Assembly: GCF_031882575.1 (NCBI RefSeq)
Contig: NZ_CP134772.1
Coordinates: forward strand, 6,545,001 to 6,609,000
DNA: 64,000 nt
Origin: Pseudomonas sp. VD-NE ins
Lineage (GTDB): Bacteria > Pseudomonadota > Gammaproteobacteria > Pseudomonadales > Pseudomonadaceae
Direction: 5' to 3'
How positions within the stretch are numbered: position 1 is the stretch's first letter; each line of letters begins with the position of its first letter. Position numbers and translations under genes: made by a program. Shown here piece after piece: positions 30,182 through 50,853 of this stretch. The notes below the pieces were generated by a model. The model did not search any database, was not told the DNA's origin, and worked only from the letters and a program-made list of their open reading frames with translations.

Positions 30182-30826
30182 TTAGCCAAGCCAGTCGAGA
30201 GTCAGGATCAAACGGCGCTGGTCGGCGGCAGGTTGCGGCGAGCGGTGAATCAGGCCGAAGCCTTCATTGCCATGCCATTTCTCGCCTTTCAACAGCGCCA
30301 CGTCGCCGCTGTCGAGTTGCTGGATTTGCACGTGGGGCTCGGCGTTGGCCTGCCCCAGTTGACTGCGATCCATCGCACCTTCCTTGAGCCATTGGCTGCC
30401 AACGCCCGCATAAGTCGTGATCAGGCGCACCGGGACGTGATCGACATGGAAGCGTGGACACATGGCTTTATCGAGCACCCGCAGGCGCACACCTACCCGC
30501 TTTGCTCCCAGTAAGCAGACGAACGCGCTGACCAGCCATTTCAGGTCGGCGATAAAGCCCTCGTAGCCTTCCAGATCACGGAAGCCTGAAGCCACACCGG
30601 TGAGATCTGGCTCGGCGTCCTCATCCGGCAACTCGAGGCACAACGAGTCCGCCAAGGGTTCATTGAGCGACAGCAGCAGGTGGGCGAAATCGCTGATGTG
30701 CAACGGCAGTTGGCGTTGCCAGACGGCGAGGTTGGTGTCGTCTTCGAGGATTCGCGTCAACGCCTTCGGTGTCGGACCTTGATGCTGATGGCGCGTACGG
30801 TTCTGCAGCAGCTTTAGCGCGAGCAT
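30182..30826 (-). CDS. DUF1826 protein, zigA operon
   Basis: A 214-residue soluble protein. FHVDHVPVRLITTYAGVGSQWL and GDVALLKGEKWHG are characteristic of DUF1826. From memory, DUF1826 genes accompany COG0523 genes in Zur regulons. The start ATG overlaps the zigA stop (TGATG), so it is translationally coupled. The His/Asp pattern (H-V-D-H) suggests a cupin-like or metal-binding site, but this is not established. Confidence 0.85.
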   Translation of the reverse strand: MLALKLLQNRTRHQHQGPTPKALTRILEDDTNLAVWQRQLPLHISDFAHLLLSLNEPLADSLCLELPDEDAEPDLTGVASGFRDLEGYEGFIADLKWLVSAFVCLLGAKRVGVRLRVLDKAMCPRFHVDHVPVRLITTYAGVGSQWLKEGAMDRSQLGQANAEPHVQIQQLDSGDVALLKGEKWHGNEGFGLIHRSPQPAADQRRLILTLDWLG

Positions 30827-32031: not shown

Positions 32032-32162
32032 TGGATAATCCTCTTCAGAAGGCAGGCAATTGGCGCTTTTTGCTGCGCGTGGCGTGTTCGCGCTTCCCAT
32101 GGTGAATCACGTAGAAAACAAACACTTTGAAATTGGCCTGCCCAAGTCTAATTCGAATTAAT

Positions 32163-32175
32163 GTTATAGTATAAC
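32163..32175. promoter_or_regulatory. Zur box (GTTATA-G-TATAAC)
   Basis: A perfect 13-bp palindrome matching the gammaproteobacterial Zur core GTTATANNATAAC, lying between zigA (minus) and the divergent small secreted protein. Zur with zinc would repress one or both. Confidence 0.85.
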
Positions 32176-32254
32176 AACGAGAAGACACCAGCCTTCTCTT
32201 GTCCTGATCGACAAAGAGCAGGAAGCTGTGCCAATCCCGAGCCCGGAAATCACC

Positions 32255-32632
32255 ATGAAAAATGCGCTGAAATGCTCAATGTTGAGCTTTGGGTTATTGC
32301 TGGCCGGCAACGCGAGCGCTCAATTGCCAGCGCTCGCCAGCTGTACACGGAGCGCCAATCTGCTGGCGTGCGTGGACGCCGACGGCAACGCTTATAGCGT
32401 CAGCACCGTAGGCAATACCCTTTATCTGCGGGGTTTTGAAAAGAACGGCCGGCGTTATTGGGCGCAGACCAACAGTCGTTTCGGTCAATTGACGTTCTTC
32501 ACCGGGATCGCCTCTGATGGCGAAGCTTGGGTTGGCTACACTCGACGTGTCGGCTGGACGACCATCAATCGTTTCTCCAGCTCGGGCGGCAGCAGTGCAA
32601 AATTCACCTGCAGCCGCATTATTGGCTGCTAA
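32255..32632 (+). CDS. Small secreted protein downstream of a Zur box
   Basis: A 125-residue exported protein: signal peptide MKNALKCSMLSFGLLLAGNASA, then a beta-rich domain with four cysteines (SCTRSANLLACVD, FTCSRIIGC at the end) and aromatic patches (YLRGFEKNGRRYWAQ). I do not recognise a family. Divergent from zigA across a Zur box, so probably zinc-starvation induced. Starts at 32228 (GTG) and 32255 (ATG) are both possible; 32255 places the signal peptide first. Convergent with the amidase gene, stops overlapping by 4 bp. Confidence 0.75.
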   Translation: MKNALKCSMLSFGLLLAGNASAQLPALASCTRSANLLACVDADGNAYSVSTVGNTLYLRGFEKNGRRYWAQTNSRFGQLTFFTGIASDGEAWVGYTRRVGWTTINRFSSSGGSSAKFTCSRIIGC

Positions 32633-33831
32633 ACCGGCGTGTTTTGTTGGGCTTTCTGCCAGGCAAGATAGCTGTCGACAGGCGGGTTCTTTTCAAAGTA
32701 ACGCTGTAAGCCGTCAAACAAGCCGTTGGCCACAGCCTGCTGATGTCGCGCCGTGACCAGTCGCTGACTGTCGCGTGCGTTGGAAATGAAGCCGGTCTCC
32801 ACCAGAATCGAAGGTACATCTGGCGATTTCAGGACCGCGAATCCTGCCTGTTCCACCCGTTTCTGATGGAGTGTGGTGATGCCGGCCAGACTCCCCAGAA
32901 CCGCGCCTCCCAATTGCAGACTGGCGGCGATCGTAGCGTTCATCGACATGTCGAGAATCACCCCGGCCAGCATCGGATCTTTGTCTTTCAGATTGAGCAG
33001 GCTGGTGGCGCCGAGCAGATCTGCGCCGTTCTCCCGCTGCGCCATGAAACGTGCCGTTGCCGATGTTGCACCGCCCTCCGAAAGACAATAGACCGATGCC
33101 CCGGAAGCGGTCAGACGTGGAGCCGCGTCGGCATGTACTGAGATGAACATGTCAGCCTTATGCTGACGCGCGATCTCCACGCGCTTGCGCAATGGAACAA
33201 AAAAATCGTCATTGCGCACCAGTTTCACATCGAAGCCTTTCTCTTTTTTCAGGCGTTTGGCGAGCAACTGAGCAATGGAAAGCACCACATCCTTTTCTCT
33301 TTCCCCTTTGGCGCCGACTGCGCCGGGATCCTTTCCGCCATGACCTGGGTCGACGACAACAATGATGTCTCGTCTTGGATGTGCCTTCAGCGCAGGTGTT
33401 TCACGTGGAACCATTGGCTTATTTGGTGCGGACTTGGTGCTGACCAAATCGAGAACCAAGCGATGCCCCTGGCCGTCCTGCGGTGCCAAAAGGAAGCTGT
33501 TCAACAGCGTTGGGCTGCTCAGATCCAGAACAATCCGCGTATCACCGTGGCCAAAAGGCCCGGAGCGAATCGAACGAATCACTGTACCGTTCAGCGCCAG
33601 TTGACTGAAATCTGCGCCAACGCTCGCACCGGACACATCAATGATCAGCCGCTCCGGAGCGCTGAGGGTGAAGGTTTTGTAGCGCACCGGCCCACTCAAA
33701 TCAAAGACCAATCGCAGTTTCTCATCAGAACGCCATAGCCGCGCGTTGCGAATCTGCGTGGCCGAAGCACTGAAAGGAAGGGCGAAGGCCGCGCTGGCCA
33801 GAATCAGATTAAGTAGATGACGTCTGTGCAT
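32629..33831 (-). CDS. N-acetylmuramoyl-L-alanine amidase (AmiC/AmiA type)
   Basis: A 400-residue periplasmic zinc amidase. Signal region ending LPFSASA, AMIN domain (about 26-130: RNARLWRSDEKLRLVFDLSGPV), linker, then Amidase_3 with VVVDPGHGGKDPGAVG (H164), KGEREKD (E178), SVHADA (H233) and ILVETGFISN. It cleaves the peptide from glycan during cell separation. It shares a Zur-type box with folE2, so it is probably the zinc-starvation paralogue of the housekeeping amidase, as in P. aeruginosa from memory. Confidence 0.92.
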   Translation of the reverse strand: MHRRHLLNLILASAAFALPFSASATQIRNARLWRSDEKLRLVFDLSGPVRYKTFTLSAPERLIIDVSGASVGADFSQLALNGTVIRSIRSGPFGHGDTRIVLDLSSPTLLNSFLLAPQDGQGHRLVLDLVSTKSAPNKPMVPRETPALKAHPRRDIIVVVDPGHGGKDPGAVGAKGEREKDVVLSIAQLLAKRLKKEKGFDVKLVRNDDFFVPLRKRVEIARQHKADMFISVHADAAPRLTASGASVYCLSEGGATSATARFMAQRENGADLLGATSLLNLKDKDPMLAGVILDMSMNATIAASLQLGGAVLGSLAGITTLHQKRVEQAGFAVLKSPDVPSILVETGFISNARDSQRLVTARHQQAVANGLFDGLQRYFEKNPPVDSYLAWQKAQQNTPV

Positions 33832-33871
33832 ATGAAAGCTCGTTCATGAAAAAGGCATCGTGATTTGAGTT

Positions 33872-33884
33872 GTTATAATGTAAC
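33872..33884. promoter_or_regulatory. Zur box (GTTATAATGTAAC) between amidase and folE2
   Basis: Matches the Zur core at all but one defined position, in the divergent region between the amidase gene (start 33831) and folE2. A TATAAT overlaps it (33874-33879), so a bound repressor would block RNA polymerase. Confidence 0.8.
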
Positions 33885-33915
33885 ATTCAATTCAATCAAC
33901 ACGATGGTTCCGAAC

Positions 33916-34812
33916 ATGAATTCGATGACACTCCCGGATATCGCCGCGCAAGTCGCTCGCCAAGCTTTGCCACTCGAATGGGTGGGCATGCGTGGCATCG
34001 CGTTACCTGTCTTGATAGAAGGGCAGCGCCTGAGCGCCAAGGCTGATGCCGGGGTCAGTCTTGATGACGGCGAGGCTCGTGGGATTCATATGTCTCGGCT
34101 TTATCTGACTCTGGAAGCACTCGAACAAGAGAGCCTTTCTCCAGCCTTGCTGCACCATGTTCTCAAGCGCTTTCTGCAAAGCCACGAGGGTTTATCCAAC
34201 CGGGCCTACCTGAATATCCATACTGATTTGCTGTTGAAGCGCCCCGCCCTGGTCAGTCCACTGGCCGGTTGGAAATCCTATCCAGCGACCATTTCAGCGA
34301 GCCTGAAAAACCAAATGTTCCACGTGGAACTCAAAATCGAGGTGGCCTACTCCTCAACCTGCCCCTGCTCTGCTGCCTTGGCGCGACAGTTGATCCAGCA
34401 ACAATTCATCGACGATTTCGCCAACAAGACCCTTCAACACGCAGACGTTTTGGCATGGCTTGGCTCGACTCAAGGCATCGTCGCCACGCCTCACAGCCAA
34501 CGCAGCACAGCACAACTGCATCTTCATCTCGACGAATTCATTGATGAGTTACCTCTGAGCGTGATCATCAATGACGCTGAAGCGGCACTCGGGACCGCCG
34601 TACAAACCGCCGTAAAACGCGCAGATGAACAAGCCTTCGCCCTCGCCAACGGACAGAACCTGATGTTCTGCGAAGACGCTGCGCGCCGACTGAATCTCGC
34701 CCTTCGCCGCACACCCGGCGTTAACCAGTTCCACCTGCGAGTGATCCACGCCGAGAGCCTTCACGCCCACGACGCCGTTGCCGAAAGCCACTGGCAGCGT
34801 GAGCAAGCATGA
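33916..34812 (+). CDS. folE2: GTP cyclohydrolase I type IB (zinc-independent)
   Basis: A 298-residue FolE2/COG1469 enzyme making dihydroneopterin triphosphate for folate. The key TCPCSAAL motif gives C149 (catalytic in the Neisseria enzyme) and C151. Unlike FolE it works with metals other than zinc, which fits the Zur box upstream. Starts 33904, 33916 and 33925 are in frame; 33916 is chosen by similarity to the known N-terminus (MN..TLPDIAAQ). Its stop overlaps the next gene by 4 bp, opening a six-gene operon that runs to 39122. Confidence 0.94.
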   Translation: MNSMTLPDIAAQVARQALPLEWVGMRGIALPVLIEGQRLSAKADAGVSLDDGEARGIHMSRLYLTLEALEQESLSPALLHHVLKRFLQSHEGLSNRAYLNIHTDLLLKRPALVSPLAGWKSYPATISASLKNQMFHVELKIEVAYSSTCPCSAALARQLIQQQFIDDFANKTLQHADVLAWLGSTQGIVATPHSQRSTAQLHLHLDEFIDELPLSVIINDAEAALGTAVQTAVKRADEQAFALANGQNLMFCEDAARRLNLALRRTPGVNQFHLRVIHAESLHAHDAVAESHWQREQA

Positions 34813-35477
34813 TCCGCTGCCAATCACTGAGCTGGGGCGCGCCCGGCCAACCACTGACTGCGCCCCTAAGTCTAGAACTCGACAGCGGCAGTCTGACGGC
34901 GATCATCGGTGCCAACGGCTGTGGCAAAAGCAGCCTTCTTAAGGTTATCGCCGGATTGCAGAAGCCGTTGGCAGGCAGCGTTGCTCTGAGTGTTCCACGT
35001 CAGAGCGGATTGTCCTTCCTGCCGCAGCAACAGCACCTGGATCGCCAATTCCCAATCAGCCTCGAAGAATTGGTCGCTGCGGGTTTCTGGGGACGCCGAC
35101 TCTCAACGCAACTGCGCGCACAACGCCTGAAAGACGCACTGGAAAACTGGCACCTGAGCGGACTCGAACACCGTCCACTCATGGCCCTGTCCGGCGGCGA
35201 ATTACAGAGCGCCCTGCTCGCTCGATTGAGTCTGACCGACGCCCCGGTTCTGCTCCTCGACGAACCCCATGCCGCCCTCGATGAACTCGGTCAACAATTG
35301 CTCTGGCAGCACGTCCATACCTGGCATAACCAAGGCCGAACAATCGTCGTGGTCTGCCACGACCTCGCAGCCGTCCGCCAACACATCCCCCACACCTTGC
35401 TGATCAAAAACCGAGAGTGCATGTTTGGCACGAGCGCAGAGCTCATTCAGCAAACACCTCATACGCAGGTGGCCTGA
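34809..35477 (+). CDS. Zinc ABC transporter ATP-binding protein (ZnuC-like)
   Basis: A 222-residue ABC ATPase. Walker A GANGCGKSS (37-45), Q-loop LPQQQHLD, signature ALSGGELQSALLAR, Walker B VLLLDEPHAALD, and H-loop VVVCHD. The permease and a ZnuA-like binding protein follow immediately. Together they form a zinc importer within the Zur operon. The canonical znuABC may exist elsewhere on the chromosome, in which case this is an auxiliary system (Azt-like). Confidence 0.9.
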   Translation: MIRCQSLSWGAPGQPLTAPLSLELDSGSLTAIIGANGCGKSSLLKVIAGLQKPLAGSVALSVPRQSGLSFLPQQQHLDRQFPISLEELVAAGFWGRRLSTQLRAQRLKDALENWHLSGLEHRPLMALSGGELQSALLARLSLTDAPVLLLDEPHAALDELGQQLLWQHVHTWHNQGRTIVVVCHDLAAVRQHIPHTLLIKNRECMFGTSAELIQQTPHTQVA

Positions 35478-36343
35478 TGCTCACCGTCGCCCACCTCTGG
35501 CAACCATTCAATGAGTTCGTGTTCATGCGCCGCGCCCTGCTCGGCGGACTGGTCTTGGCGTGCAGTACAGCGCCACTCGGCGTGTTTTTGATCCTGCGAC
35601 GGATGAGCCTGATCGGTGACGCCGTCGCCCACGGCATCCTTCCCGGCGCTGCATTGGGTTTCTGGTTTGCCGGACTGAGCCTGCCCGCGCTAACGCTGGG
35701 AGGCTTGGGCGCCGGTCTGAGCATGGCCGGCCTCGCCGCCTGGATCACCCGCCGCACCGGTTTGCGCGAAGACGCCAGTCTCGCTGCGATCTATCCGATC
35801 TCACTGGCCTGTGGCGTACTCATCCTTGGCATCGCCGGCAAACGCCTCGACCTGTTGCACCTGCTGTTCGGCTCAGCACTGGCCGTCGACGGTCCGACCC
35901 TCACCGGCATGTTATGGGTCTCGGGATTCAGCCTCCTCGCCATGGCACTGATCTACAAACCTCTGCTGCTCGACACCCTCGACCCCCTGTTCCTGAAAAC
36001 GGTCAGCCGCCTCGGCCCACTCGCCCATGGCGTGTTCCTGACCCTCGTGGTGCTGAATCTGGTCATCGGTTTCCAGGCCATTGGCGCGCTGATGGTGGTC
36101 GGACTGATGATGCTTCCCGCCGCCGCTTCGCGATTCTGGAGCCGCCGTCTGCCGATCCTGATTGCCATCACGTCTGTCATCGGATGCCTCTCGGTGTGGT
36201 TCGGCTTGCTGCTGTCGTTCTACTACTCGTTGCCCAGCGGCCCGGCCATCGTGTTGGTCGCAGGCCTTGGCTATCTGTTGTCCGTGGTGTTCGGGCCGGT
36301 ACACGGTCTGTTGCGCCGCCCACCGTTGCTCACATCCCAATGA
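35477..36343 (+). CDS. Zinc ABC transporter permease (ZnuB-like)
   Basis: A 288-residue ABC-3 permease. About eight hydrophobic helices with the family blocks RRMSLIGDAVAHGILPGAALGFWFAG near residue 40 and QAIGALMVVGLMMLPAAASRFWSRR near 205. The start ATG overlaps the ATPase stop (TGATG). Pairs with the adjacent ATPase and metal-binding protein. Confidence 0.9.
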   Translation: MLTVAHLWQPFNEFVFMRRALLGGLVLACSTAPLGVFLILRRMSLIGDAVAHGILPGAALGFWFAGLSLPALTLGGLGAGLSMAGLAAWITRRTGLREDASLAAIYPISLACGVLILGIAGKRLDLLHLLFGSALAVDGPTLTGMLWVSGFSLLAMALIYKPLLLDTLDPLFLKTVSRLGPLAHGVFLTLVVLNLVIGFQAIGALMVVGLMMLPAAASRFWSRRLPILIAITSVIGCLSVWFGLLLSFYYSLPSGPAIVLVAGLGYLLSVVFGPVHGLLRRPPLLTSQ

Positions 36344-36354
36344 GGTGTTTCCCG

Positions 36355-37230
36355 ATGCGCGCTCTACTCGTGCTGTTCAGCCTGATGTTGTCGATGTCAT
36401 TGTCGGCAGCGGAAAAACTGCCCGTGGTCACCAGCTTCAGCATTCTCGCCGACATGGTCCATCAGGTCGGCGGCGAGCATATCCAGATCACCAACATGGT
36501 CAGCCCCGACGCCGACGCACACACTTACGAGCCGACGCCGGACGATGCCAAAGCATTGCTTGGCGCGAAATTGATCATCAAGAACGGCCTCCGTTTCGAG
36601 CCATGGCTGGATCGTCTGGTCACCAGTACCGAGACCAAAGCCACGGTCATCAGTGCCAGTCACGGCGTGATTCCACGCTCGCTGGATGAAGACGGCGAAA
36701 CCGTTCCCGACCCGCATGCCTGGCACAATCTGGCGAACGCCGAGTTGTATATCGCCAATATCACCAAGGCACTGGTCGCTGCGGATCCTGCGAACAAAGC
36801 TGACTACGAACGCAACAGCAAAACTTATCTGAAGCAGATCTACGCCCTGCTCGCCGAAGCCAAAACCAAACTCGGTTCGCTACCACCGGGCACCCGCAAG
36901 ATCGTCACCAGCCACGATGCTTTTGGATATCTCGGCCAGGCGTACGGTATCGACTTCATGGCACCGCAGGGCTTGTCCACCGAACGTGAACCCTCCGCCG
37001 CCGAAGTCGCAGCACTGATCACCCAGATTCGTCAGGCCCACGTCAAAGCGGTATTCATGGAAAACATCAAAGACGCACGCCTGCTCAAACAGATCGCCGA
37101 TGAAAGCGGCGCGCACATCGGCGGCACGCTCTACTCGGATGCCCTCGCTGCGAGTGGCCCGGCCAGCACCTTCACCGGCCTGTTCGAATACAACCTCAAT
37201 ACCCTTTACGACGCGCTGAGCCAACCATGA
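36355..37230 (+). CDS. Zinc ABC transporter substrate-binding protein (ZnuA-like)
   Basis: A 291-residue cluster A-I metal-binding protein. Signal peptide MRALLVLFSLMLSMSLSAA; metal-site histidines in DAHTYEP and DPHAWHN (DPHxW is the family's second-site motif) and SHDAFGY. Lacks a long His-rich loop between the first two His sites that many ZnuA proteins carry. GAGGTG lies 7 nt before the ATG at 36355; a start at 36340 is also open. Confidence 0.92.
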   Translation: MRALLVLFSLMLSMSLSAAEKLPVVTSFSILADMVHQVGGEHIQITNMVSPDADAHTYEPTPDDAKALLGAKLIIKNGLRFEPWLDRLVTSTETKATVISASHGVIPRSLDEDGETVPDPHAWHNLANAELYIANITKALVAADPANKADYERNSKTYLKQIYALLAEAKTKLGSLPPGTRKIVTSHDAFGYLGQAYGIDFMAPQGLSTEREPSAAEVAALITQIRQAHVKAVFMENIKDARLLKQIADESGAHIGGTLYSDALAASGPASTFTGLFEYNLNTLYDALSQP

Positions 37231-37787
37231 TCCGCAAGAACCCTTCAGGTGATTTGCCACACATTGCCGAGTCGGCCTACGTCGATAAAACCGCAATCAT
37301 CTGCGGCAAAGTGGTGATCGGCGAGAATGTTTTCGTCGGCCCGTACGCGGTGATCCGCGCCGACGAAGTGGACGCCTCAGGCGAGATGGAGCCGATCACC
37401 ATCGGTGCCAATTCGAACATTCAGGACGGTGTGGTGATCCACTCCAAATCAGGCGCGGCGGTGACCATCGGCGAATTCAGCTCCATCGCCCACCGCTCGA
37501 TCTTGCATGGCCCCTGCGTCGTCGGCGATCGCGTGTTCATCGGTTTCAACAGCGTCCTGTTCAACTGCGTCGTCGGCAACGGTTGCGTGGTGCGGCACAA
37601 CTCGGTGGTCGACGGTCGGGATTTGCCGGATGCCTTCTATGTGCCCTCCACGACTCGTATTGGTCCGAACACCGACCTCTCGCAGTTTCCACCGGTGAGC
37701 GTCAGCGCTTCGGAGTTTTCCGAAGACGTGGCGCGCACCAACGTCGATCTGGTGCGTGGCTACAAAGCCTTGCAGAACGAGTTCTGA
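37227..37787 (+). CDS. Gamma-class carbonic anhydrase family protein
   Basis: A 186-residue left-handed beta-helix of hexapeptide repeats (YVDKTAIICGKVVIGENVFVGPYAVIRADE, NSNIQDGVVIHSKSG, SIAHRSILHGPCVVGDRVFIGFNSVLFNCVVGNGCVVRHNSVVDG). His residues in IHSK, AHRS and LHGP match the gamma-CA metal ligands. Gamma enzymes use Fe or Co as well as Zn, so expression from a Zur operon would maintain CO2/bicarbonate balance when zinc is short. Four-bp overlap with the binding-protein gene. Confidence 0.9.
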   Translation: MIRKNPSGDLPHIAESAYVDKTAIICGKVVIGENVFVGPYAVIRADEVDASGEMEPITIGANSNIQDGVVIHSKSGAAVTIGEFSSIAHRSILHGPCVVGDRVFIGFNSVLFNCVVGNGCVVRHNSVVDGRDLPDAFYVPSTTRIGPNTDLSQFPPVSVSASEFSEDVARTNVDLVRGYKALQNEF

Positions 37788-37790
37788 ACC

Positions 37791-39122
37791 ATGAGCAGCG
37801 TGCTGATTCGCAACGCAAGGCTGATCAATGAAGGACGCGAGTTCGACGGCGATCTATTGGTCAGCAACGGGCGCATCGTCAAGATTGCTCGCAGCATCGA
37901 AGGCGAAAACGCCAAGGTGGAAATCGACGCGAATGGCCAGTGGTTGCTGCCGGGGATGATCGACGACCAAGTGCATTTTCGTGAACCCGGTGCGCCAGCC
38001 AAGGGCAGTATTCACAGCGAATCTCGGGCGGCGGTTGCCGGGGGCATCACCAGTTTCATGGACATGCCGAATACAAACCCGGCCACCCTCACCCTTGAAG
38101 CGCTGGGTGACAAAAAGCGCCGGGCTGCGATCGGTTCGGTGGCCAACTACGGTTTTCACTTTGGTGTGAGTCAGGACAATCTGGATACAGTGACGGCGCT
38201 CAATGCGTGTGAAGTCGCCGGGGTGAAAGTGTTCATGGGCGCATCGACCGGCAACATGCTGGTGGACGATCCCAAGATTCTCGAGCGACTGTTCGCCGAG
38301 GTGCCAACGATCCTGTTGGCTCACTGCGAACACACCCCGAGTATCGACGCGAATGCGGCCAATCTGCGTGACCTGTTCGGAGAACGAATCCCGCCCGGTG
38401 CTCACCCGCTCATCCGCAATGCCGAGGCGTGTTATCGCTCCTCTTCACTGGCGGTCGAGTTAGCCAAACGTCACGGCACGCGGCTCCATGTTTTGCACCT
38501 GACCACGGCGCGTGAACTGGCGTTGTTCGAGGACAAACCGCTTGCGCAAAAACGCATTACGGCGGAAGTCTGCCTGCACCATTTGTTGTTCGACGACCGC
38601 GATTACCCATGCCTTGGGAACTTGATCAAGTGCAATCCGGCGATCAAGACTCAGGCCGATCGCGATGCGCTGCGCGCGGCCCTGAACAGCAATCTACTGG
38701 ACGTGATCGGCAGTGACCATGCGCCACATACCTGGGAAGAAAAGCAGCGAGCGTATGTGCAGGCGCCTTCTGGATTACCGCTGGTACAGCATGCGTTGCC
38801 AGCGTTAATGGAGCTGGTGGCGGATGGGGTTTTGCCAATCACCACACTGGTGGCGAAGACCAGCCATCGCGTGGCGGATCTGTTTGCCATTCCGGATCGG
38901 GGTTATCTCCGGGAAGGGTATTGGGCGGATCTGGTGTTGGTTGAACGGCAAACGCTGGAAGTCGATCGGCAACCGATTCTGTCGCAGTGCGGATGGACGC
39001 CGTTCGCCGGACGCAGCTTTCGCCATCGGGTGAATATGACAATTGTCTCGGGGCAGATTGCTTGGCGGGACGGTCGGGTGAATGAAGGATGTCGCGGGTT
39101 GGCGCTGAGGTTTATGCGTTGA
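37791..39122 (+). CDS. pyrC: Alternative dihydroorotase in the Zur operon
   Basis: A 443-residue amidohydrolase of the class I dihydroorotase type. The usual metal-binding HxH is read as Q-V-H (Q60, H62) in PGMIDDQVHFREPG. The remaining ligands are visible: Lys in GVKVFMGAST, His in LAHCEH and HVLHLTTA, Asp in GSDHAPH. It converts carbamoyl-aspartate to dihydroorotate in pyrimidine synthesis. From memory, a second pyrC in this operon position is typical of pseudomonads and is thought to replace the zinc-dependent enzyme. Final gene of the operon. Confidence 0.88.
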   Translation: MSSVLIRNARLINEGREFDGDLLVSNGRIVKIARSIEGENAKVEIDANGQWLLPGMIDDQVHFREPGAPAKGSIHSESRAAVAGGITSFMDMPNTNPATLTLEALGDKKRRAAIGSVANYGFHFGVSQDNLDTVTALNACEVAGVKVFMGASTGNMLVDDPKILERLFAEVPTILLAHCEHTPSIDANAANLRDLFGERIPPGAHPLIRNAEACYRSSSLAVELAKRHGTRLHVLHLTTARELALFEDKPLAQKRITAEVCLHHLLFDDRDYPCLGNLIKCNPAIKTQADRDALRAALNSNLLDVIGSDHAPHTWEEKQRAYVQAPSGLPLVQHALPALMELVADGVLPITTLVAKTSHRVADLFAIPDRGYLREGYWADLVLVERQTLEVDRQPILSQCGWTPFAGRSFRHRVNMTIVSGQIAWRDGRVNEGCRGLALRFMR

Positions 39123-42644: not shown

Positions 42645-43433
42645 CTATCGTTGCAGGCGCTCCAGCAAACCGTCCTGTATCCACTGTTTCAACCAGGTAA
42701 CAGCTTGAAGTGGTGCGCCCTCACCATAAGTGACTGCTAACTCGACGCACAGTTCGGAGAAACTCCAGCCATCTTTGAGCAAGCCGTTCAGAGCCGTGGC
42801 TTGCGCCGGATCAAGGCTGCGGTAACTGCAGATCAACTGGCTGCGCCAGATCAGACAGATTTGTGGGATTTCGAGCGCCATGCTGTCAGGGAATTCCGAC
42901 TCTTCTTTCACTGCGCGCCACAATGAAAGGCTGTTGAAACGGCACTCCAGCCATTGCGAGGACGGCACCGCTCTGACCCGCAATTCGGGCCATTCCTCCG
43001 CGGCCAGGGCCGCCATCGCATCAATCGTCACTGGCTCAGCGGCAGGTGCATCGAAGGCCAATGTGAAGGCCCACTCAAGCGCAATCAACTCAGCCAGTGG
43101 CGCACTCTGCTCTGGCACCAAATGCTCGCGGACAAAGCCTTCAAAGCCTTTGCCCAACCAGCGAAGGCTGAAATGTGCTGACGGAGACTGTCGGATGTAA
43201 GCCATGGCGAGTCGGTCAAATTCATCGTCGCCCAGCCAGTTCAGGGTCGTCGGAAAGTCATTGCGCAAGACTTCCAGCAAACGCGCCTTGTAAGCATGCT
43301 GATAAATCGACAGTCCCGTGCCGACATCCAGTGTCGGGCCACCGGTCAGGCTCTCGCGCAACCTCGGACTCGCGCTGGGGTGTTCTTCGAGCAGAAACGC
43401 TTCAAACGCCAGTTGCCACTCTTTCAGGCGCAT
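42645..43433 (-). CDS. DUF2063 protein, bufferin biosynthesis partner (BufC/HvfC-like)
   Basis: A 262-residue soluble protein with the N-terminal DUF2063 domain (LKEWQLAFEAFLLEEHPSAS, GLSIYQHAYKARLLEVLRNDFPTTLNWLGDDEFDRLAMAYIR). Such proteins pair with DUF692 enzymes, where they recognise the precursor leader or assist catalysis. Overlaps bufB by 10 bp, confirming coupling. No DNA-binding domain is obvious despite frequent annotation as such. Confidence 0.85.
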   Translation of the reverse strand: MRLKEWQLAFEAFLLEEHPSASPRLRESLTGGPTLDVGTGLSIYQHAYKARLLEVLRNDFPTTLNWLGDDEFDRLAMAYIRQSPSAHFSLRWLGKGFEGFVREHLVPEQSAPLAELIALEWAFTLAFDAPAAEPVTIDAMAALAAEEWPELRVRAVPSSQWLECRFNSLSLWRAVKEESEFPDSMALEIPQICLIWRSQLICSYRSLDPAQATALNGLLKDGWSFSELCVELAVTYGEGAPLQAVTWLKQWIQDGLLERLQR

Positions 43434-44269
43434 TGCTGCCTCCCGGCCAGAACCTTGTTGCCGAGCCGACGGGCCGTTTGCAGTTCATCGAGCAGTGCTT
43501 CAAAGGGCGGAAAATGGTCATCGCGTTCCAGCAACGTGGCCACCGGGCCGAAATGTTCGAGTGTGCGTTGATAGAGCGCCCAGACCGGATCACTCACCGG
43601 ATGGTCGTGGGTGTCGATCACGTAATCGCCGTAATCGCTGTGCCCCGCCAGATGCAGTTGACGGACTTTATCGATGGGCAGGGTGCTGATGAAGGCCCAC
43701 GGATCGAAACCATGGTTGCGTGAACTGACGTAGACATTGTTCACATCGAGCAATAATTCGCAGCCGCTCACACGGCTGAGCAAAGCGAGAAACTCCCACT
43801 CGGTGAAATCATCCGAGGCGCCGCGCACGTAACTGGAGACGTTCTCCAGCACCAACGGACGCTGCAGAATGTCCTGAACCTGCATCACGCGAGCAGCGAT
43901 GTAATCCAGGCTTTCTTCGGTGTAAGGCAGCGGCAGCAGATCATGCAACTGATGGGCATTGCCACGGCTCCAGCACAAATGGTCAGAGATCCATGCCGGT
44001 TTGACCCGTTCGGCCAATTGCTTGAGTTGGTTGAGATAGTCAGGGTCGAGGGCATGCGGCCCGCCGATGGACAGGGATACGCCGTGCATCACCAGCGGGT
44101 AGCGTTCGGCAATGGCGTCGAGGTAATACAGGGCCTTGCCGCCCTGCACCATGAAATTTTCCGAAACCACTTCGAACCAGTCGACGTCCGGCGACTGCTC
44201 AAGGATCTGCTGGTAATAAGCGCTGCGTAAACCCAGGCCATAACCCAGAAAAGGAAGAGAAACAGACAT
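43424..44269 (-). CDS. DUF692 multinuclear iron-dependent oxidase (BufB/MbnB-like)
   Basis: A 281-residue TIM-barrel enzyme of the MNIO (DUF692) family. Metal-ligand regions: VSENFM, MHGVSLSIGG, ISDHLCW, LENVSSY, LLLDVNNVYVSS, LAGHSDY, DTHDHPV. Family members install thio-oxazole or thiooxazole-like groups on Cys residues of precursor peptides; the neighbouring Cys-rich DUF2282 protein is the likely substrate. A strong terminator lies between the precursor and this gene, with a GGAG RBS just after the terminator T-run. Confidence 0.9.
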   Translation of the reverse strand: MSVSLPFLGYGLGLRSAYYQQILEQSPDVDWFEVVSENFMVQGGKALYYLDAIAERYPLVMHGVSLSIGGPHALDPDYLNQLKQLAERVKPAWISDHLCWSRGNAHQLHDLLPLPYTEESLDYIAARVMQVQDILQRPLVLENVSSYVRGASDDFTEWEFLALLSRVSGCELLLDVNNVYVSSRNHGFDPWAFISTLPIDKVRQLHLAGHSDYGDYVIDTHDHPVSDPVWALYQRTLEHFGPVATLLERDDHFPPFEALLDELQTARRLGNKVLAGRQQCA

Positions 44270-44284
44270 GTGCGGACTCCTGAT

Positions 44285-44318
44285 AAAAAGTGGCCGCAGT
44301 GGCGCAAACCACTGCGGC
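44285..44318 (-). terminator. Intrinsic terminator between precursor and modification genes
   Basis: On the minus strand GCCGCAGTGG (44309-44318 reading down) pairs perfectly with CCACTGCGGC (44293-44302) around a 6-base loop, followed by CACTTTTTATC. It is a perfect 10-bp stem with a T-run, located between bufA and bufB. It would let most transcripts end after the precursor gene. Confidence 0.85.
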
Positions 44319-44334
44319 TACACTTGCCGGTCAG

Positions 44335-44586
44335 TTATTCGCCGACCTTGCCACCGGCTTTTTCGCACGCCGCCTGAGTCATCGCCTTGAAGCCCTGGCC
44401 TTTGCAGGAACCCATGCCTTTGCAGGCGTGGTCTTTGGTTTTGCAGTCGTTCTGGCCTTTGCAGCCGTTCACGCCGTAGCAGTGAACGTTGGCATCGGCG
44501 GCCATCGCGTTGGAGGCAACACCGGCGAACATTGTCGCGGCGGCCAAAGCGAGAGCGGCACCAGCAGCAGCGGTCTTGATGGTCAT
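44335..44586 (-). CDS. Bufferin-type RiPP precursor (DUF2282, BufA1-like)
   Basis: An 83-residue exported protein. Signal-type N-terminus (residues 1-30) ending SNAMAA, then a mature region with six Cys at 36, 42, 48, 55, 61 and 74 and repeated Lys-Gly (CKGQ, CKGMGSCKGQGF). This matches DUF2282, the precursor family modified by DUF692 enzymes; bufferins are proposed to sequester copper in the periplasm. CGAGGAT precedes the ATG. It is the first gene of the bufABC unit; no DoxX gene is present. Confidence 0.85.
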   Translation of the reverse strand: MTIKTAAAGAALALAAATMFAGVASNAMAADANVHCYGVNGCKGQNDCKTKDHACKGMGSCKGQGFKAMTQAACEKAGGKVGE

Positions 44587-44696: not shown

Positions 44697-46604
44697 TCAA
44701 AGGTCTTTCCGGAGCTTGAGCAACGGCTCTTGAAAGCGCAGCAAGCGCCCGGCATTACCGAGCACCAGCAACGTGCTGAGGTTATGCAGCAGCGCGGCAA
44801 TCATCGCCCCGGCGGCACCCAGCCAGCCGAATGCAGCGAACACGACGATGGCCAGCGTCCAGCTCAGGCCGATGATCACGTTGACCTGCAACGTCCTTCG
44901 GCACTGACGGCTGAGCCGCACACAAGTACCGAGTCGGCGCAGGTCGCTGCCGATCAAGACGATGTCGGCCGAGGCCAGCGCGATATCCGCACCACCGGCC
45001 CCCATCGCCACACCGACCACGCCCGCCTTCAGCGCGAGCGAATCATTGATGCCGTCACCGACCACCATCGGCCGGAAACCATTGTCGATTTCCTTGAGCA
45101 CACGATTGAGTTTGTCTTCGGGCAGGGCCTGGGCTTCAACCTCATGCAAACCGACCTCTTTGGCCAGCGACTGAGCCACGCTTTGGCGGTCGCCGGTCAG
45201 CAGCAATTGCCGGCCGAGACCCAGCTCGCGCAATTCGTCGAGGGCGAAACGGGCTTCCGGTTTAACCGTATCGGCGAGCAACAACCAGGCGAGGAACTCA
45301 CCGTTCAATGCCAACCCGGCGATAGGCCCATCGTGATCGGGAACCGTTGTCGTGGTGATGCCCAGTTGCGCGAACAACTCCGGGCGGCCCAGCGCGGCTT
45401 CGCCCTGTGCGGTCATGGCTACCACGCCGAGGCCTTGGCGCTCGTGGATATCACTCAGGGGTAATGACTCTTCCTGACTGACCAACCCGGCGAGCGCACG
45501 ACTGACCGGATGGCTGCTCGCCGCGCCAAGGCTGGCAGCGAGCGCAATGATCAAGGATGACTCTGCGCGCGGGTTATTGATCGACCGCAGGCGCAGGGTG
45601 CCGAAAGTCAGGGTGCCGGTCTTGTCGACCACCAGCGAGGTCAAATCGGCCAGCTCCTCAAGGAACGCCGAGCTGCGGATCAGAATGCCGTGGCGTGCGG
45701 CCACTGCCACACCGGCAATCGCCGTGGCCGGAGCCGACAGCACCAAGGCACACGGACAGGCGGCAACCAATACCGCGAGCATCGCTTGCGCATCGTGAGT
45801 GATAAACCAGGTCACCGCCGCCAACAGCAACACCAGCACCATGTAGCTGCCGGCATAGCGTTCGAGCAATCGCGTGATCGGTGGCTTCGAGCGCTCGGCG
45901 TTCTGCATCAACGCGATGACCTTGCCCAGCGTCGACTCGCCACCGGTGCGCGTCACCTCAATACGCAGCAGGCCGTCGAGGTTGATCGCCCCGCCGAACA
46001 CCGACATGCCGACGCCCGCCTCGACCGGCACCGATTCACCAGTAATCGAAGCGGTGTCGAGACTGGCTTGGCCGGATAGCACTCGACCATCGGCGGGAAT
46101 ACGATCACCGGCGCGCACTTCAACGGTGTCGCCTGCTTTCAGCGTGCCGTTGTCCACTTCGATGATCGAGCCGTCAGCCTGAACCTTACGTGCATGGCTG
46201 CGCGTCAGTTGGCCAAGGGCATGGATCGCCTCCTGCGAACCGATGACGCTACGCTCTTCCAGGACATGACCGAAGATCATGATGATCGGCAGCAGCGCGG
46301 CCGTCAGCAGGTCACCCGTCGCCCAGGCGCCAAGCATGGCCAGGGCAATCAGTTGATCGGTAATGCCGTGCAGACTTGGATAGCGAAGGCTGTACCACGC
46401 CGAGCGCATCACCGGCACGGCGACCAACAAAGAAGCAACACCCAACAGCAACTGGCTGACCCCGGTTTGCTCCGGCACCAGCCAACGCCAGATCAGACCG
46501 AGACCAAGAAGGCCCAGCGCGAGCATGGCTAACGTCAATTGACGTGCAGCGCGGCGTTGTTCGGCCGAGGACAACAAGCTCGGTGCGGCGGTCGTCGCAG
46601 TCAT
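44697..46604 (-). CDS. Heavy-metal P-type ATPase with atypical metal-site residues
   Basis: A 635-residue P1B-like ATPase. No N-terminal HMA domain; TGES at 188-191, CPC at 283-285 (AACPCALVLSAPA), phosphorylation site DKTGT (D327), HP locus SHPVSR, and GDGIND. In the last membrane region the ZntA-type Asp or the P1B-4 HEG-type motif is replaced by HNLST (H607). Transported metal therefore cannot be predicted. Last gene of a four-gene operon with three SPFH proteins; its start overlaps the previous stop by 4 bp. Confidence 0.88.
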   Translation of the reverse strand: MTATTAAPSLLSSAEQRRAARQLTLAMLALGLLGLGLIWRWLVPEQTGVSQLLLGVASLLVAVPVMRSAWYSLRYPSLHGITDQLIALAMLGAWATGDLLTAALLPIIMIFGHVLEERSVIGSQEAIHALGQLTRSHARKVQADGSIIEVDNGTLKAGDTVEVRAGDRIPADGRVLSGQASLDTASITGESVPVEAGVGMSVFGGAINLDGLLRIEVTRTGGESTLGKVIALMQNAERSKPPITRLLERYAGSYMVLVLLLAAVTWFITHDAQAMLAVLVAACPCALVLSAPATAIAGVAVAARHGILIRSSAFLEELADLTSLVVDKTGTLTFGTLRLRSINNPRAESSLIIALAASLGAASSHPVSRALAGLVSQEESLPLSDIHERQGLGVVAMTAQGEAALGRPELFAQLGITTTTVPDHDGPIAGLALNGEFLAWLLLADTVKPEARFALDELRELGLGRQLLLTGDRQSVAQSLAKEVGLHEVEAQALPEDKLNRVLKEIDNGFRPMVVGDGINDSLALKAGVVGVAMGAGGADIALASADIVLIGSDLRRLGTCVRLSRQCRRTLQVNVIIGLSWTLAIVVFAAFGWLGAAGAMIAALLHNLSTLLVLGNAGRLLRFQEPLLKLRKDL

Positions 46605-47650
46605 TTACTGGCTCCCTGAATGATCAGGCGGGAATCGTCTTTCGGGTCGACCGTGGTGACCGATCCGGCCTGACCGAGAATCTTCGGCATGCGCTCGCGG
46701 TAAAGGCGCAGGAGCAATTGCGGATCGGTAGTTTTGGCCAGGCTCGACACTGTGGCCGTGTCGGCCGAGGCTTTGGCCAAGCGCTCACCAGCCTGCGCGT
46801 GAGCTACCTGCAACGTGCGGTCGGCTTGTTCGTTGGCAGTCTGGGTAAGTTTCTCGGCGTCGGTGCGTGCATTGGCCACCGCTTTGTCGGCCTGCTGACT
46901 GGCGGTCAGCACCGCATTAAAAGCGCTGACCGCCGGATCCGGCAGACTCGATTGCACATCGACTCGCGCCACTTCGATGCCGATGCCCTGCCCGCTTGCC
47001 TTCAGCGCGGCCAAGCGTTTGTTGATGCCCTGGACCAGATCACCACGAAGTTTTTCACGACGTTCAGCGGCCTGGTTGTCAGCGCCGATCAACTCCGGGC
47101 GAGCAACCAGAATGGTGTCCAGATCACGTGAGGCCGTCAGTGCCACCGCACTGCGGGTGACCAATCGGTCCAATGCCGGCAACACATGATCGCCTTGCAA
47201 CACGAAATCGTAAGGGTCGGTGACTTTGTAGAACACCCGTACATCCAGTTGTACGACGCCGGCATCACCGGTCAATAAATAACCAGATCCGGCCAAGGCA
47301 TCGCTCAGCGGTGTGGCGAAGGAAGCGACCCGATCCGCCTTCAGCGCCTCATCGCTGCGCAACAGATTATCGACGCGACGCTCGATCACCCGATCAGCTG
47401 CGGGCAGCAAAATCACCTGCTCGAATGGCTGCGGCCAGGCCAACAGCAGACCGGCATTCTGGATGCGATCCAGCGCGCCGAAATGCAACACCACCGCGCG
47501 ATTCTGCGGATCAATTTGCCGAACATTGGAAAACACCCAAGCCAATGCGGCGAGGATCGTCACCGCGTACAAGGCAAAGAATGCCAACCGCCCAGCCTGA
47601 ATCCACGGACTGTTCAGCGCATGTGTTCCACGTGGAACTTCTTCACTCAT
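46601..47650 (-). CDS. SPFH/Band-7 protein, HflC-like
   Basis: A 349-residue protein with one N-terminal membrane helix (LAFFALYAVTILAALAWVFSNV) and a Band-7 domain (IDPQNRAVVLHFGALDRIQNAGLLLAWPQPFEQVILLPA), then a long Ala-rich coiled coil (ADKAVANARTDAEKLTQTANEQADRTLQVAHAQAGERLAKASADTAT). HflC and HflK normally form a cage around the FtsH protease. This is a paralogue outside the hflKC locus, sandwiched between a second SPFH gene and the P-type ATPase, each coupled by 4-bp overlaps. Confidence 0.87.
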   Translation of the reverse strand: MSEEVPRGTHALNSPWIQAGRLAFFALYAVTILAALAWVFSNVRQIDPQNRAVVLHFGALDRIQNAGLLLAWPQPFEQVILLPAADRVIERRVDNLLRSDEALKADRVASFATPLSDALAGSGYLLTGDAGVVQLDVRVFYKVTDPYDFVLQGDHVLPALDRLVTRSAVALTASRDLDTILVARPELIGADNQAAERREKLRGDLVQGINKRLAALKASGQGIGIEVARVDVQSSLPDPAVSAFNAVLTASQQADKAVANARTDAEKLTQTANEQADRTLQVAHAQAGERLAKASADTATVSSLAKTTDPQLLLRLYRERMPKILGQAGSVTTVDPKDDSRLIIQGASK

Positions 47651-48684
47651 GGTTGCGATCCGGTTTTGCTGTCGAGTGTCGGCGGGCCATCGACCAATAC
47701 GCGGAATGGCGCGGCGTCGGTACGCAGAATCAGTTTGGTGTCAGGCGTGACGATGGTGCCGAGGGTGTCCAGCGAACGCAGCAAGTTGTAGAGCTGCGGT
47801 GAACTGGCGTATGCACGACCATAAATCTGCGCCGCTTCGACGCGCGATTGCGCTTCGATTTCTGCCGCTTTTACCGTCGCGTCAGCCTGCACGATTCGCG
47901 CATCGCGCTCGGCTGCGGAACGGATTTGCGCGGCCTCACGTTTGCCGATGGCCGTGCGTTCAGTGGCGATTGTTTCACGCTCGGCGCGCATGCGATCGAC
48001 CGTGGCAGTGAGCGTCACCGACGGCAAGGTCAAACGCTCTATGCCGACTTGCACAACCCGCACGCCATATGTCGCGAGCAATTGCTGATCGATCTGTTGA
48101 CGTAGCTGCGCTTCAAAATCGGCGATACGCACCTGACGGGCATCAGTGTTCACCAGATTCGCCAGATCAAAACTGCTCGCGGTGGTTTCCAGCGCCGAAC
48201 CGACAAAAGTACGAATCTGCCGCGCCGCTTCGTCCGGTTGATTCTGCACGGCGCGCATAAAACGCTGCACATTGTCCGCGTCGCCCTGCACCTGCCACGC
48301 CACGTAGGCCTGCACAATGATGCGCAATCCATCACGGGTGCCGACATCCTGCAAGCCACTGGACGTCGTGCGCAGACGCAGGTCCACCGGAATCGCCGCC
48401 TCGAACGGCGCCGGCCAGCGCCAGCTCAAACCCGGATCAAGCAACACCCGCGCTGGGTTACCAAACCGCGTAATAACTGTGGCTTCACCGGAGCGAACCT
48501 GCACCAGGCTCGCCGCCGCAATGGCAAACACCACCAACAAGACTGCCCAGCCCATCCGCCGCCAAGGAAAAGGCCCGGCCTCTTCCGGCGCACCGTGATG
48601 ATGTCCGTGGTGATGGTGATGCCCGCCGTGACCGTGATCGTGGCCGCTGTGGTCATGATGATCGTGTGTGTGCGACTGGCTCAA
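47647..48684 (-). CDS. SPFH/Band-7 protein, HflK-like, with a His-rich N-terminus
   Basis: A 345-residue protein. Residues 5-30 hold 16 histidines (starting SHTHDHHDHSGHDHGHGG), a soft metal-binding tail in the cytoplasm ahead of a membrane helix (MGWAVLLVVFAIAAASLVQV). The SPFH domain follows (SGEATVITRFGNPARVLLDPGLSWRWPAPFE) and a coiled coil (RIVQADATVKAAEIEAQSRVEAAQIYG). Typical HflK carries a Pro/Gly-rich rather than His-rich N-terminus. Overlaps both neighbours by 4 bp. Confidence 0.88.
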   Translation of the reverse strand: MSQSHTHDHHDHSGHDHGHGGHHHHHGHHHGAPEEAGPFPWRRMGWAVLLVVFAIAAASLVQVRSGEATVITRFGNPARVLLDPGLSWRWPAPFEAAIPVDLRLRTTSSGLQDVGTRDGLRIIVQAYVAWQVQGDADNVQRFMRAVQNQPDEAARQIRTFVGSALETTASSFDLANLVNTDARQVRIADFEAQLRQQIDQQLLATYGVRVVQVGIERLTLPSVTLTATVDRMRAERETIATERTAIGKREAAQIRSAAERDARIVQADATVKAAEIEAQSRVEAAQIYGRAYASSPQLYNLLRSLDTLGTIVTPDTKLILRTDAAPFRVLVDGPPTLDSKTGSQP

Positions 48685-50642
48685 TGGGCGACTCCTGGTT
48701 GAGCGTTGGTGCGCGCGGGCGTCGGGTCAGCCGGCAGCGTGAACGTACGCAGGTCAATGGTCGGTGCATTGCTGCTGCCGCCCAGACGGTGGTCGAGGAT
48801 CAACAATTTGGCTTTGCTCAGGCCTTGGCTGAGCTCGCCGAGGTATTGCTCCAGCACAAAGGCCTGGCCGGCGCTGGCGTAGGCTTTTTGCTCGGCGCCG
48901 AATCGCAGATCCGCTGCTTGCGCCGTGGCACGGGTTTCCCGCGCATTGGCGCTGGCCTGATCGCGAGCCAGGCTGGCCTGCAATTGCGCCTGATTACTCG
49001 CTTCAGCTGCCGCACCACGCTCGCGGGAAATCAATGCCTGCGCGCCGATCTGCGCGGCTTGCACACCGTGATAGGCATTGGCGGCACCGGCCGGGGGATG
49101 AATGGCCTCGACGACCGTGGCAAGGATCTCCACGCCGCTGTTAAGTTTTTCCAGATCACTCTGCACCGCGCGACCAATCTCCTCGCCCAGCCCTACCCGG
49201 TCTTGGCCGAGTAAACCGTCCAGCGTGCGCGAGGCGAAGTCATGTACCAGAATTCGGCTGGCGGTGCTGCGGATCAGCGTCGGCACATCCGCACTGTTGT
49301 ACGTCGCGGCCAGTGCGGCCAGATCGCTCAGGCCGATGCGATAGACGAAACGCACGTCCATGTTGACGATCTGGAAGCTCTGCTGGTCGCCACGGCTGCT
49401 GGCAATAACTTGCGATTTGTCGTTGACGTGACTGGCGTCCCACAGACGGTTGGCGGTCACTGGTGCCGGGCCTTCAGCAGGGTCGGCTTGCAGCGGTATC
49501 GCATTCTCGCCGACGCTGGTGGCCAGTTCATGCACCACGCCATTTTCAACGATCAACACCCGCCCCAGCGGCCAAGGCAAACCGCTGTGCAACCCCGGAC
49601 CGAATACCTGAACCGGTTTTCCAAAGCGCTCATAAATTCCTCGGCCCTGCAGCGGAATTTCATGAATACCGGTGAGCAACCAGCCCACTGCCGCGACCAG
49701 CGCCAACACCGGTAAAAAGGCGCGGCGCATGTAACTGAACGCCCAGATCTGGCGCAGATCGATGCCAAAACGGTTGCGCAATTCATGCTGCAGCGCGAGT
49801 AAAGGTTGTGGTGGCCAACGCAGCATATCGGCGACAAAACTGCGCGCCAGCAGTGTCGGCTCAAGCAGTTCACGGCGAGGACTGAAAATGGAAAGAACGG
49901 CGCGCAATAGCAACTCGATCGCAACCAATCCCGGCAAGATACCGATCAACACAGCAACGCGAACTGGCCATATGGCGTTGTCGCCAGCGAACAGCAAACA
50001 CAGCGCGCCCAGCACCAGACTGATGATCGCCACACGCGTCAGTTGCGCGAGTGAACCCGCTTCGGGCCATTGCGCCGGGTTTTCCTGGGCCAGTTGCCGC
50101 TCCAACACCAGCAAGCCGAACGCCAGCAACAACGCTAACGCTGCACCCACCGTAGCGGATAAACCCATGGCGGCGGCCGGCAACGCCAGATTCCACGCCT
50201 GGTCGATACTCAGCACCACCAAAAGCGCCCAGCCACCCAACCACAGCGTCGCCGCACCGATCTGGCCGAGCAGGTGCAGGCTGCGTTGGCTCAAACGGTC
50301 CAGCAGCCGCTCATACCAACCCTGCGGCGCAGAATGTTCTTCCACGGCAAGCGGTGCCGGCGCAACAGGATTGATCACCTGCACCCGCCAACGCGTCACC
50401 CACCGCGCCGATTGCAGCCCGGCCACCAGCACCAGCAATGCCGCACTCTGATTGACCAACAGCGGCAGCCACAATGACTGCGGGGCAAACAGCCCGACAA
50501 AAAATGCCAGCACCCAGCCTGCCCCGGCCAATCCGCCGAAGCCGATTGCCCATCGTCGCAGACGACGGCTCTGCGCGGCCGCCTGCTGAAAGCGCGGCAG
50601 TGCGGTCACTTGCGTGCCATCCACTTCCAGATCGACTTGCAT
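48681..50642 (-). CDS. Large SPFH/Band-7 protein with an N-terminal multi-helix membrane domain
   Basis: A 653-residue protein, nearly twice the size of HflK. The first 320 residues hold about seven hydrophobic segments (GFGGLAGAGWVLAFFVGLFA, LATLWLGG-type pairs, VAVLIGILPGLVAIELLL, LPVLALVAAVGWLL). The Band-7 domain follows (GIYERFGKPVQVFGPGLHSGLPWPLGRV; MDVRFVYRIG), then a coiled coil rich in Ala and Gln. I do not recognise a named protein of this architecture. It starts the four-gene operon; a Zur-like palindrome lies 35 bp upstream. Confidence 0.85.
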   Translation of the reverse strand: MQVDLEVDGTQVTALPRFQQAAAQSRRLRRWAIGFGGLAGAGWVLAFFVGLFAPQSLWLPLLVNQSAALLVLVAGLQSARWVTRWRVQVINPVAPAPLAVEEHSAPQGWYERLLDRLSQRSLHLLGQIGAATLWLGGWALLVVLSIDQAWNLALPAAAMGLSATVGAALALLLAFGLLVLERQLAQENPAQWPEAGSLAQLTRVAIISLVLGALCLLFAGDNAIWPVRVAVLIGILPGLVAIELLLRAVLSIFSPRRELLEPTLLARSFVADMLRWPPQPLLALQHELRNRFGIDLRQIWAFSYMRRAFLPVLALVAAVGWLLTGIHEIPLQGRGIYERFGKPVQVFGPGLHSGLPWPLGRVLIVENGVVHELATSVGENAIPLQADPAEGPAPVTANRLWDASHVNDKSQVIASSRGDQQSFQIVNMDVRFVYRIGLSDLAALAATYNSADVPTLIRSTASRILVHDFASRTLDGLLGQDRVGLGEEIGRAVQSDLEKLNSGVEILATVVEAIHPPAGAANAYHGVQAAQIGAQALISRERGAAAEASNQAQLQASLARDQASANARETRATAQAADLRFGAEQKAYASAGQAFVLEQYLGELSQGLSKAKLLILDHRLGGSSNAPTIDLRTFTLPADPTPARTNAQPGVAH

Positions 50643-50676: not shown

Positions 50677-50689
50677 GTTACGATATAAC
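50677..50689. promoter_or_regulatory. Zur-like palindrome upstream of the SPFH/ATPase operon
   Basis: GTTACGATATAAC matches 9 of 11 defined positions of the Zur core; flanks extend it to the inverted repeat CGTTA-N5-TAACG. It is 35 bp from the start of the large SPFH gene and 165 bp from lpd3. Weaker than the two other boxes in this window. Confidence 0.4.
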
Positions 50690-50853
50690 GAAAAGCGTGA
50701 AATATTCGTACACAATTGCGCTTATTCAAAGACGCCGATCCTGTCGCTTGCCTGAAGCCTTGACCGAAAAGCCGTGAAACGCACATATTACGTTCGTAAT
50801 TTTCATCCGGAACTACTTTTAGCGATCCGCACTCTTCAATCAGGAGCAAGCGC

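Follow-up and report, generated by a model that had tools for sequence, protein, structure and literature searches.

Conserved coupling of three SPFH genes to an HmtA-type P-type ATPase gene in a putatively Zur-controlled Pseudomonas operon

Introduction

In the bacterium Pseudomonas sp. VD-NE ins, three genes encoding SPFH proteins (S1, S2 and S3) and a gene encoding a heavy-metal P-type ATPase make up one unit, which is either complete or absent in the genomes examined. The four genes lie on the minus strand of a 64,000-nucleotide stretch of DNA (the window; positions 6545001-6609000 of contig NZ_CP134772.1), within a single-contig genome of 6,696,054 bases. Because a conserved Zur-type box stands in front of S1, the sequence suggests zinc shortage as the setting in which the genes are switched on, and all four are very likely to be carried on a single, Zur-repressed transcript. 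The reading put forward here, the chances of which we judge to be evenly balanced, is that the three SPFH proteins form a dedicated cage for the ATPase, a pump of the HmtA type, and that the Zur-repressed operon serves the import of zinc, possibly also of copper, into the starved cell.

Metal import by P1B ATPases has been an open question ever since HmtA was proposed to be an importer, and few bacterial SPFH proteins have a known client. Should trio and pump turn out to be parts of one machine, a single small operon would allow tests of both questions. The main features, with coordinates counted from the first letter of the window, are as follows.

48681..50642 (-), S1, 653 residues, Band_7 domain at 332-544; described from hydropathy, AlphaFold2 models and fold comparison
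47647..48684 (-), S2, 345 residues, TTG start; HflC-like SPFH protein with a His-rich N-terminal tail and one membrane helix (Band_7, NCBIfam, hydropathy)
46601..47650 (-), S3, 349 residues; HflK-like SPFH protein with one membrane helix (Band_7, NCBIfam, hydropathy)
44697..46604 (-), ATPase, 635 residues; HmtA-type heavy-metal P-type ATPase with no HMA domain match, CPC in transmembrane helix (TM) 6 and HNLST in TM8
50697..50709 (-), promoter element ACGAATATTTCAC, conserved, likely a -35 region; 7 bp separate it from the downstream Zur-type box
50677..50689 (-), putative Zur-type operator GTTATATCGTAAC, upstream of S1; exact match to GTTATANNRTAAC

A four-gene unit of restricted spread

A first-pass annotation of the window had described three SPFH genes and a P-type ATPase gene joined by overlaps of exactly 4 bp, and this description stands: the open reading frame (ORF) coordinates give a 4-bp overlap at each of the three junctions (minus strand, 50642-44697), and Pfam places Band_7 above its cut-off in all of S1, S2 and S3, and E1-E2_ATPase and Hydrolase in the ATPase. 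The genome has six Band_7 places in total; besides S1-S3 these are the two genes of an hflK-hflC pair (597065-598572) and a sixth place.

Co-occurrence was followed in samples of 149 genomes of the genus, 321 of the class and 398 of the phylum, the genus and phylum samples sharing some genomes, with cut-offs of E <= 1e-40 for each of S1, S2 and S3 and 1e-150 for the ATPase. Each of the four genes returned the identical list of 87/149 genus genomes, so that presence in the genus is patchy and, at the cut-offs applied, never partial, and S1 and the ATPase were found in an identical set of 11/398 phylum genomes. The order S1-S2-S3-ATPase is kept in every one of the 168 loci retrieved, which comprise 80 genus loci (out of 87), 80 named ones (the best 80 of 390 relatives, all from Pseudomonas) and 8 further loci from the phylum search. 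Free separation of the genes in other genomes, which the first-pass annotation had set against its own proposal, was not seen. The spread of the unit is restricted, and the class sample returned S1 only from the genome that holds the window (1/321); the phylum sample nevertheless gave two class-mates. In the most distant loci, L169-L171, S1 is 44-48% and the ATPase 68-72% identical to the window proteins, and the closest proteins to S1 of L171 are from Rhizobium.

The overlaps are not due to chance, since an in-frame start that overlaps the preceding stop by 4 bp is present in most loci, at 129/165 for S1/S2, 154/165 for S2/S3 and 157/165 for S3/ATPase; these counts, which cover 165 of the 168 loci (L069, L078 and L086 left out), are of possible starts rather than of starts used.

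Three irregular loci may be mentioned separately. S1 is split into two reading frames in genome G033 (L086), and two ORFs stand in place of an intact S2 in L169, each by decay or sequencing error. In L168, a 150-residue protein that starts like a signal peptide and matches no Pfam family (L168:8178-8630) lies between S3 and the ATPase, the place taken by PA2436 in P. aeruginosa.

The three SPFH proteins

The first-pass annotation had the second protein as HflK-like with a His-rich tail and the third as HflC-like. The tail is real, at the N-terminus of S2 and ahead of its single membrane helix in 168/168 loci, and the labels have to be exchanged: NCBIfam places S2 nearest to HflC (100.2 bits, with 41.6 for HflK) and S3 nearest to HflK (91.2 bits), as is S1 (53.0 bits). 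All three remain under the equivalog cut-offs (134.4 for hflC, 159.4 for hflK), and these cut-offs, together with the separate hflK-hflC pair in the genome, rule out that S1-S3 are the canonical HflK and HflC.

S1 has a six-helix membrane domain (about 18-257), a seventh helix (about 305-326) and an SPFH domain continued by a long helix (332-609). By structural comparison of the AlphaFold2 models, its membrane domain has a predicted CDF-like (SLC30/YiiP) fold, and the seventh helix is predicted to place the SPFH domain on the periplasmic side. The metal sites of CDF transporters are D/HxxxD motifs in TM2 and TM5, and two motifs of this type were present in six of 8 CDF proteins compared, whereas in 73 S1 sequences neither TM2 nor TM5 has a conserved Asp, Glu or His. 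Sequence comparison was likewise negative, with no CDF family in the list of Pfam matches to S1 (25 of 28 families, 54 members, E up to 10) and a probability of 0.7% in hhalign of S1 against CDF. An active CDF transporter was rejected on these grounds in spite of the predicted fold; S1 is instead predicted to be a CDF-like six-helix fold, devoid of the CDF metal site, joined to an SPFH domain. Seven His residues in the predicted periplasmic SPFH part of S1 (352, 371, 405, 467, 515, 525 and 618) are kept in at least 97% of the 73 sequences, and four of them align with residues other than His in E. coli HflK; the seven may possibly form a metal site.

The ATPase

DKTGT and CPC are present in the ATPase at all 168 loci, and the window protein passes TIGR01512, the NCBIfam 'cadmium family' subfamily model, with 487 bits against a cut-off of 313.5. 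Zinc exporters of the ZntA/CadA kind (P1B-2) are recognized by a Lys in TM7 and an Asp in TM8. Both residues are present in ZntA and in a CadA-like pump of the same genome; the window ATPase lacks the TM7 Lys and has His607 in place of the TM8 Asp, so an ordinary zinc exporter was rejected although TIGR01512 fits. An HMA domain was not matched by Pfam, and it is on Pfam that this absence rests, a check for CxxC being uninformative because the CadA-like pump also scored none. The nearest solved relatives are 7qbz, 4umv and 3rfu, which we take to be exporters, 7qbz presumably being sCoaT. Four ATPases of P. aeruginosa are 80% identical to the window protein over 623-624 residues and have CPC and HNLST in common with it; as judged from this likeness, they are very probably HmtA (PA2435). 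As a separate observation, the ATPase has a His-rich N-terminal tail of its own in 13/168 loci (L079, L080, L085, L167, L168, L171 and seven others).

A conserved Zur-type box upstream of S1

GTTA-N5-TAAC was found no more than 250 bp upstream of S1 in 153 of 168 promoters (the window and 167 loci, L086 left out), and the Zur-type box or a near form of it is present in 70/72 promoters after dereplication, at -39 to -131 relative to the start codon. Conservation at the box positions fixed by the search pattern is circular, and what counts is that, outside the main search pattern, TA at positions 4-5 and G at position 8 of the box are strongly conserved in the dereplicated promoters. In addition, a block ending in TTTCAC, 7 bp upstream of the box, is strongly conserved among the 70 promoters (columns -20 to -8, 0.9-1.9 bits), most columns flanking the box and this block having 0.5 bits or less. 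The box is absent from two of the 72, L084 and L171; the latter has another palindrome, GATACGTAATAACGTATC, about 100 bp upstream of S1, which may be the operator of a rhizobial-type regulator.

Within its own 6.7-Mb genome, GTTATANNRTAAC gives 5 strand matches at four sites. Three of the four exact sites are in the window, before S1, before zigA and before folE2, and an 11/13 match to the box lies between the genes for ZnuA and a Fur-family protein. The fourth exact site (L175; C1:2656282-2656294) is between divergent ORFs resembling membrane proteins, for which we know of no zinc link. From these data, Zur would be expected to bind the S1 box.

The related cluster of P. aeruginosa

Reports on P. 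aeruginosa are cited here from the parts of their text that are available. In a znuA mutant, PA2439 (HflK family), PA2438 (HflC), PA2437 (HflC family) and PA2435 (HmtA) are up 5.6- to 14.4-fold (PMC4542158); zinc depletion raises the four proteins, with significance not in all (PMC11761036); and Zur binds the PA2439 promoter in a zinc-dependent gel shift (PMC8531726). PA2439/2438/2437 are also PA14_33070/33080/33110 (PMC9431628). A 2026 paper names these SPFH genes PaFlo5-7, a conserved operon whose genes, organization and context are found in a small set of species from several classes, with horizontal transfer possible; a mutant lacking all three formed about 20% less biofilm and was less virulent in Galleria, with pyocyanin and swimming unaffected (PMC13086221). 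A term search of the main text of that paper gave no mention of an ATPase, of HmtA or of Zur, and one of zinc, for FtsH.

Hence the cluster, the SPFH operon and the zinc response are already in print for P. aeruginosa, and the statement of the first-pass annotation that no system of this composition was described is not upheld, given PA2439-PA2434 with HmtA and PaFlo5-7 (PMC4542158, PMC8531726, PMC13086221). In the available text of these three papers, the four proteins are not presented as a single machine. Open-licence literature, within which HmtA and HflK do occur together (3 records, two titles), yielded no paper that pairs HmtA with SPFH proteins, subscription papers such as the 2009 HmtA paper being outside that scope. 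New in relation to the literature searched are the occurrence of the four genes as an all-or-none unit, the His tail that S2 has at every locus, the predicted CDF-like/SPFH fusion fold and the altered ATPase signature.

Neighboring genes

Two further clusters of the window are of interest in relation to the unit.

28826-39122, zinc-starvation island: CobW-type GTPases with zigA, DUF1826, amidase, folE2, aztABC-like ABC transporter, gamma-carbonic-anhydrase-like, amidohydrolase
32163-32175 and 33872-33884, the other two exact Zur-type boxes of the window, separated from the S1 box by 16.8 and 18.5 kb
42645-44586 (-), bufferin-type cluster: 83-residue Cys-rich bufA-like precursor, MNIO maturase BufB, DUF2063/HvfC-like protein (bufC)

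Between the near end of the island and the stop codon of the ATPase gene lie 5.6 kb, and two exact boxes are inside the island. ZigA is a zinc metallochaperone GTPase (family score 686.6, cut-off 600), and folE2 is followed by the aztABC-like ABC genes, the gamma-carbonic-anhydrase-like gene and the amidohydrolase gene. The last of these adjoins the operon in 13/80 genus and 43/80 named loci, counts for which the fetched flanks often end too early.

Bufferins have been described (PMC12452194, available part). In the window, bufABC is directly downstream of the ATPase; the bufA-like precursor is Cys-rich with no Pfam match, and BufB scores 375.6 with MNIO_BufB (cut-off 310). In relatives, bufABC is between the ATPase and cfaB, being present at that place in 23/80 genus, 21/80 named (one more with bufC only) and 2/8 phylum loci, and bufB is found at 81% identity in genomes that lack the operon, such as G006, G031 and G051. 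This patchy presence and the occurrence without the operon rule out that bufferin genes and pump are one copper system; the bufferin genes are a separate copper-peptide module.

Discussion

In the proposed mechanism, zinc shortage would release the promoter from Zur and the four proteins would be made together. S1, S2 and S3 would then alternate in a mixed ring of the HflK/C kind that covers the pump on its periplasmic side; the ATPase would be the client of this ring, and the CDF-like domain of S1 would pack beside or between pumps. The chamber, with the conserved His residues, could hold zinc at the outer mouth of the pump, and at the cytoplasmic face a ring of S2 His tails could take the incoming zinc, replacing the metal-binding domain that the ATPase lacks. 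An ATPase of the HmtA kind would likely be what brings zinc, possibly copper, into the starved cell. We infer the cage, the contact and the direction of transport, and direction cannot be read from a sequence. The membrane scaffold for metal transport suggested by the first-pass annotation thus stays the most likely reading, partly supported overall and now with zinc starvation as its setting.

Several points weigh against this reading. Linked genes travel together, so the co-occurrence counts exaggerate the amount of independent evidence, and the number of GTTATANNRTAAC matches alone proves nothing because the reversed pattern, used as control, gives 3 against 5. The mRNA of hmtA was found to be low and without repression by zinc (PMC8531726), and a review excepts hmtA from the Zur-bound promoters (PMC10393844). 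The import direction would follow from the published reading of HmtA, namely Zn/Cu import (Lewinson 2009, as cited by PMC4542158 and PMC10393844), and this reading is itself disputed, the same review calling the claim unusual and in need of confirmation (PMC10393844).

This dispute bears on the idea, improbable in our estimation, that the pump runs outward like other P1B ATPases, removing competitors of zinc (Cd, Co, Cu) or supplying the periplasm, with the cage guiding the exported ion. It would agree with the nearest solved relatives, taken to be exporters, and a sequence silent on direction does not oppose it; on the other side, overexpression of HmtA, as cited in PMC10393844, increased both the metal content and the sensitivity, and the TM7 Lys and TM8 Asp of the CadA-like pump are missing from the window ATPase. 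FtsH offers another way to account for the trio, which would be a zinc-starvation form of HflK/HflC that restrains or retargets FtsH and so prevents degradation of the ATPase and of further membrane proteins, with no cage around the pump. S1-S3 are distant relatives of HflK/HflC, FtsH is a zinc protease, and a P. aeruginosa transcriptome paper, in which the three genes are listed alongside the zur regulon, gives a pointer to FtsH (PMC9431628, available text). We nonetheless hold this to be unlikely, in view of the equivalog scores of S1-S3 and the hflK-hflC pair elsewhere in the genome; moreover, a pure modulator of FtsH explains neither the strict coupling to one ATPase nor the His tail. The four genes might also share no more than a regulon: under zinc starvation the trio would organize a domain of the membrane, and the ATPase would be co-expressed without contact. 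Zinc-starvation genes of unrelated function do cluster here, as the island at 28826-39122 illustrates, but a gene order fixed in 168/168 loci with start and stop codons that mostly overlap makes this quite doubtful, and a loose neighbor looks different, as bufABC does with its 23/80 genus loci.

A bolder form of the caged-pump reading, to which we give only a small chance, is a single zinc-uptake machine in which a three-part SPFH cage, derived in part from a retired CDF transporter, would itself make the enclosed HmtA-type ATPase an importer by shutting off its outer mouth in a chamber of the periplasm that conserved His residues line, and by drawing the ion into the ring of His tails. If true, this would make it the first ion pump of bacteria to be found in a cage, and it would account both for the ability of a P-type ATPase to run inward and for the long dispute over import by HmtA. 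Even in the plainer form, one machine of trio and pump would extend to an ion pump the theme of an SPFH assembly with one membrane client, known from HflK/C-FtsH and stomatin-aquaporin.

Comparison with known systems

The closest system is PA2439-PA2434 of P. aeruginosa, which has the same order of HflK-like, HflC-like and third SPFH protein followed by a P-type ATPase, is induced by zinc depletion, and has a PA2439 promoter that is shifted by Zur. It differs in the extra gene PA2436 between the third SPFH gene and the ATPase gene, whereas in the window these genes overlap directly and lie near a zinc-starvation island. Like the HflK/HflC-FtsH complex (7vhp, 7wi3, 9cz2), the trio consists of SPFH proteins, and its kinship with HflK/HflC in sequence and fold makes a ring-like assembly likely. 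However, there are two subunits in that complex and three here, one with a six-helix domain and one with a His-rich tail, all under the family cut-offs, and the partner gene is that of a pump rather than ftsH. The ATPase core is shared with ZntA (4umv) and 7qbz, with CPC as in ZntA and HNLST of TM8 aligned with HEGST of 7qbz; unlike these, the window ATPase has SPFH partners and is without the TM7 Lys, the TM8 Asp, the TM8 Glu and an HMA match. S1 is set apart from CDF/SLC30 transporters (YiiP, ZnT1) by the lack of a sequence match and of the D/HxxxD sites of TM2 and TM5. Finally, in stomatin-aquaporin 1 (9zd2), as far as its available description goes, an SPFH protein is likewise bound to a membrane transporter; there, the SPFH protein is human stomatin, the only one named, and the transporter is a water channel.

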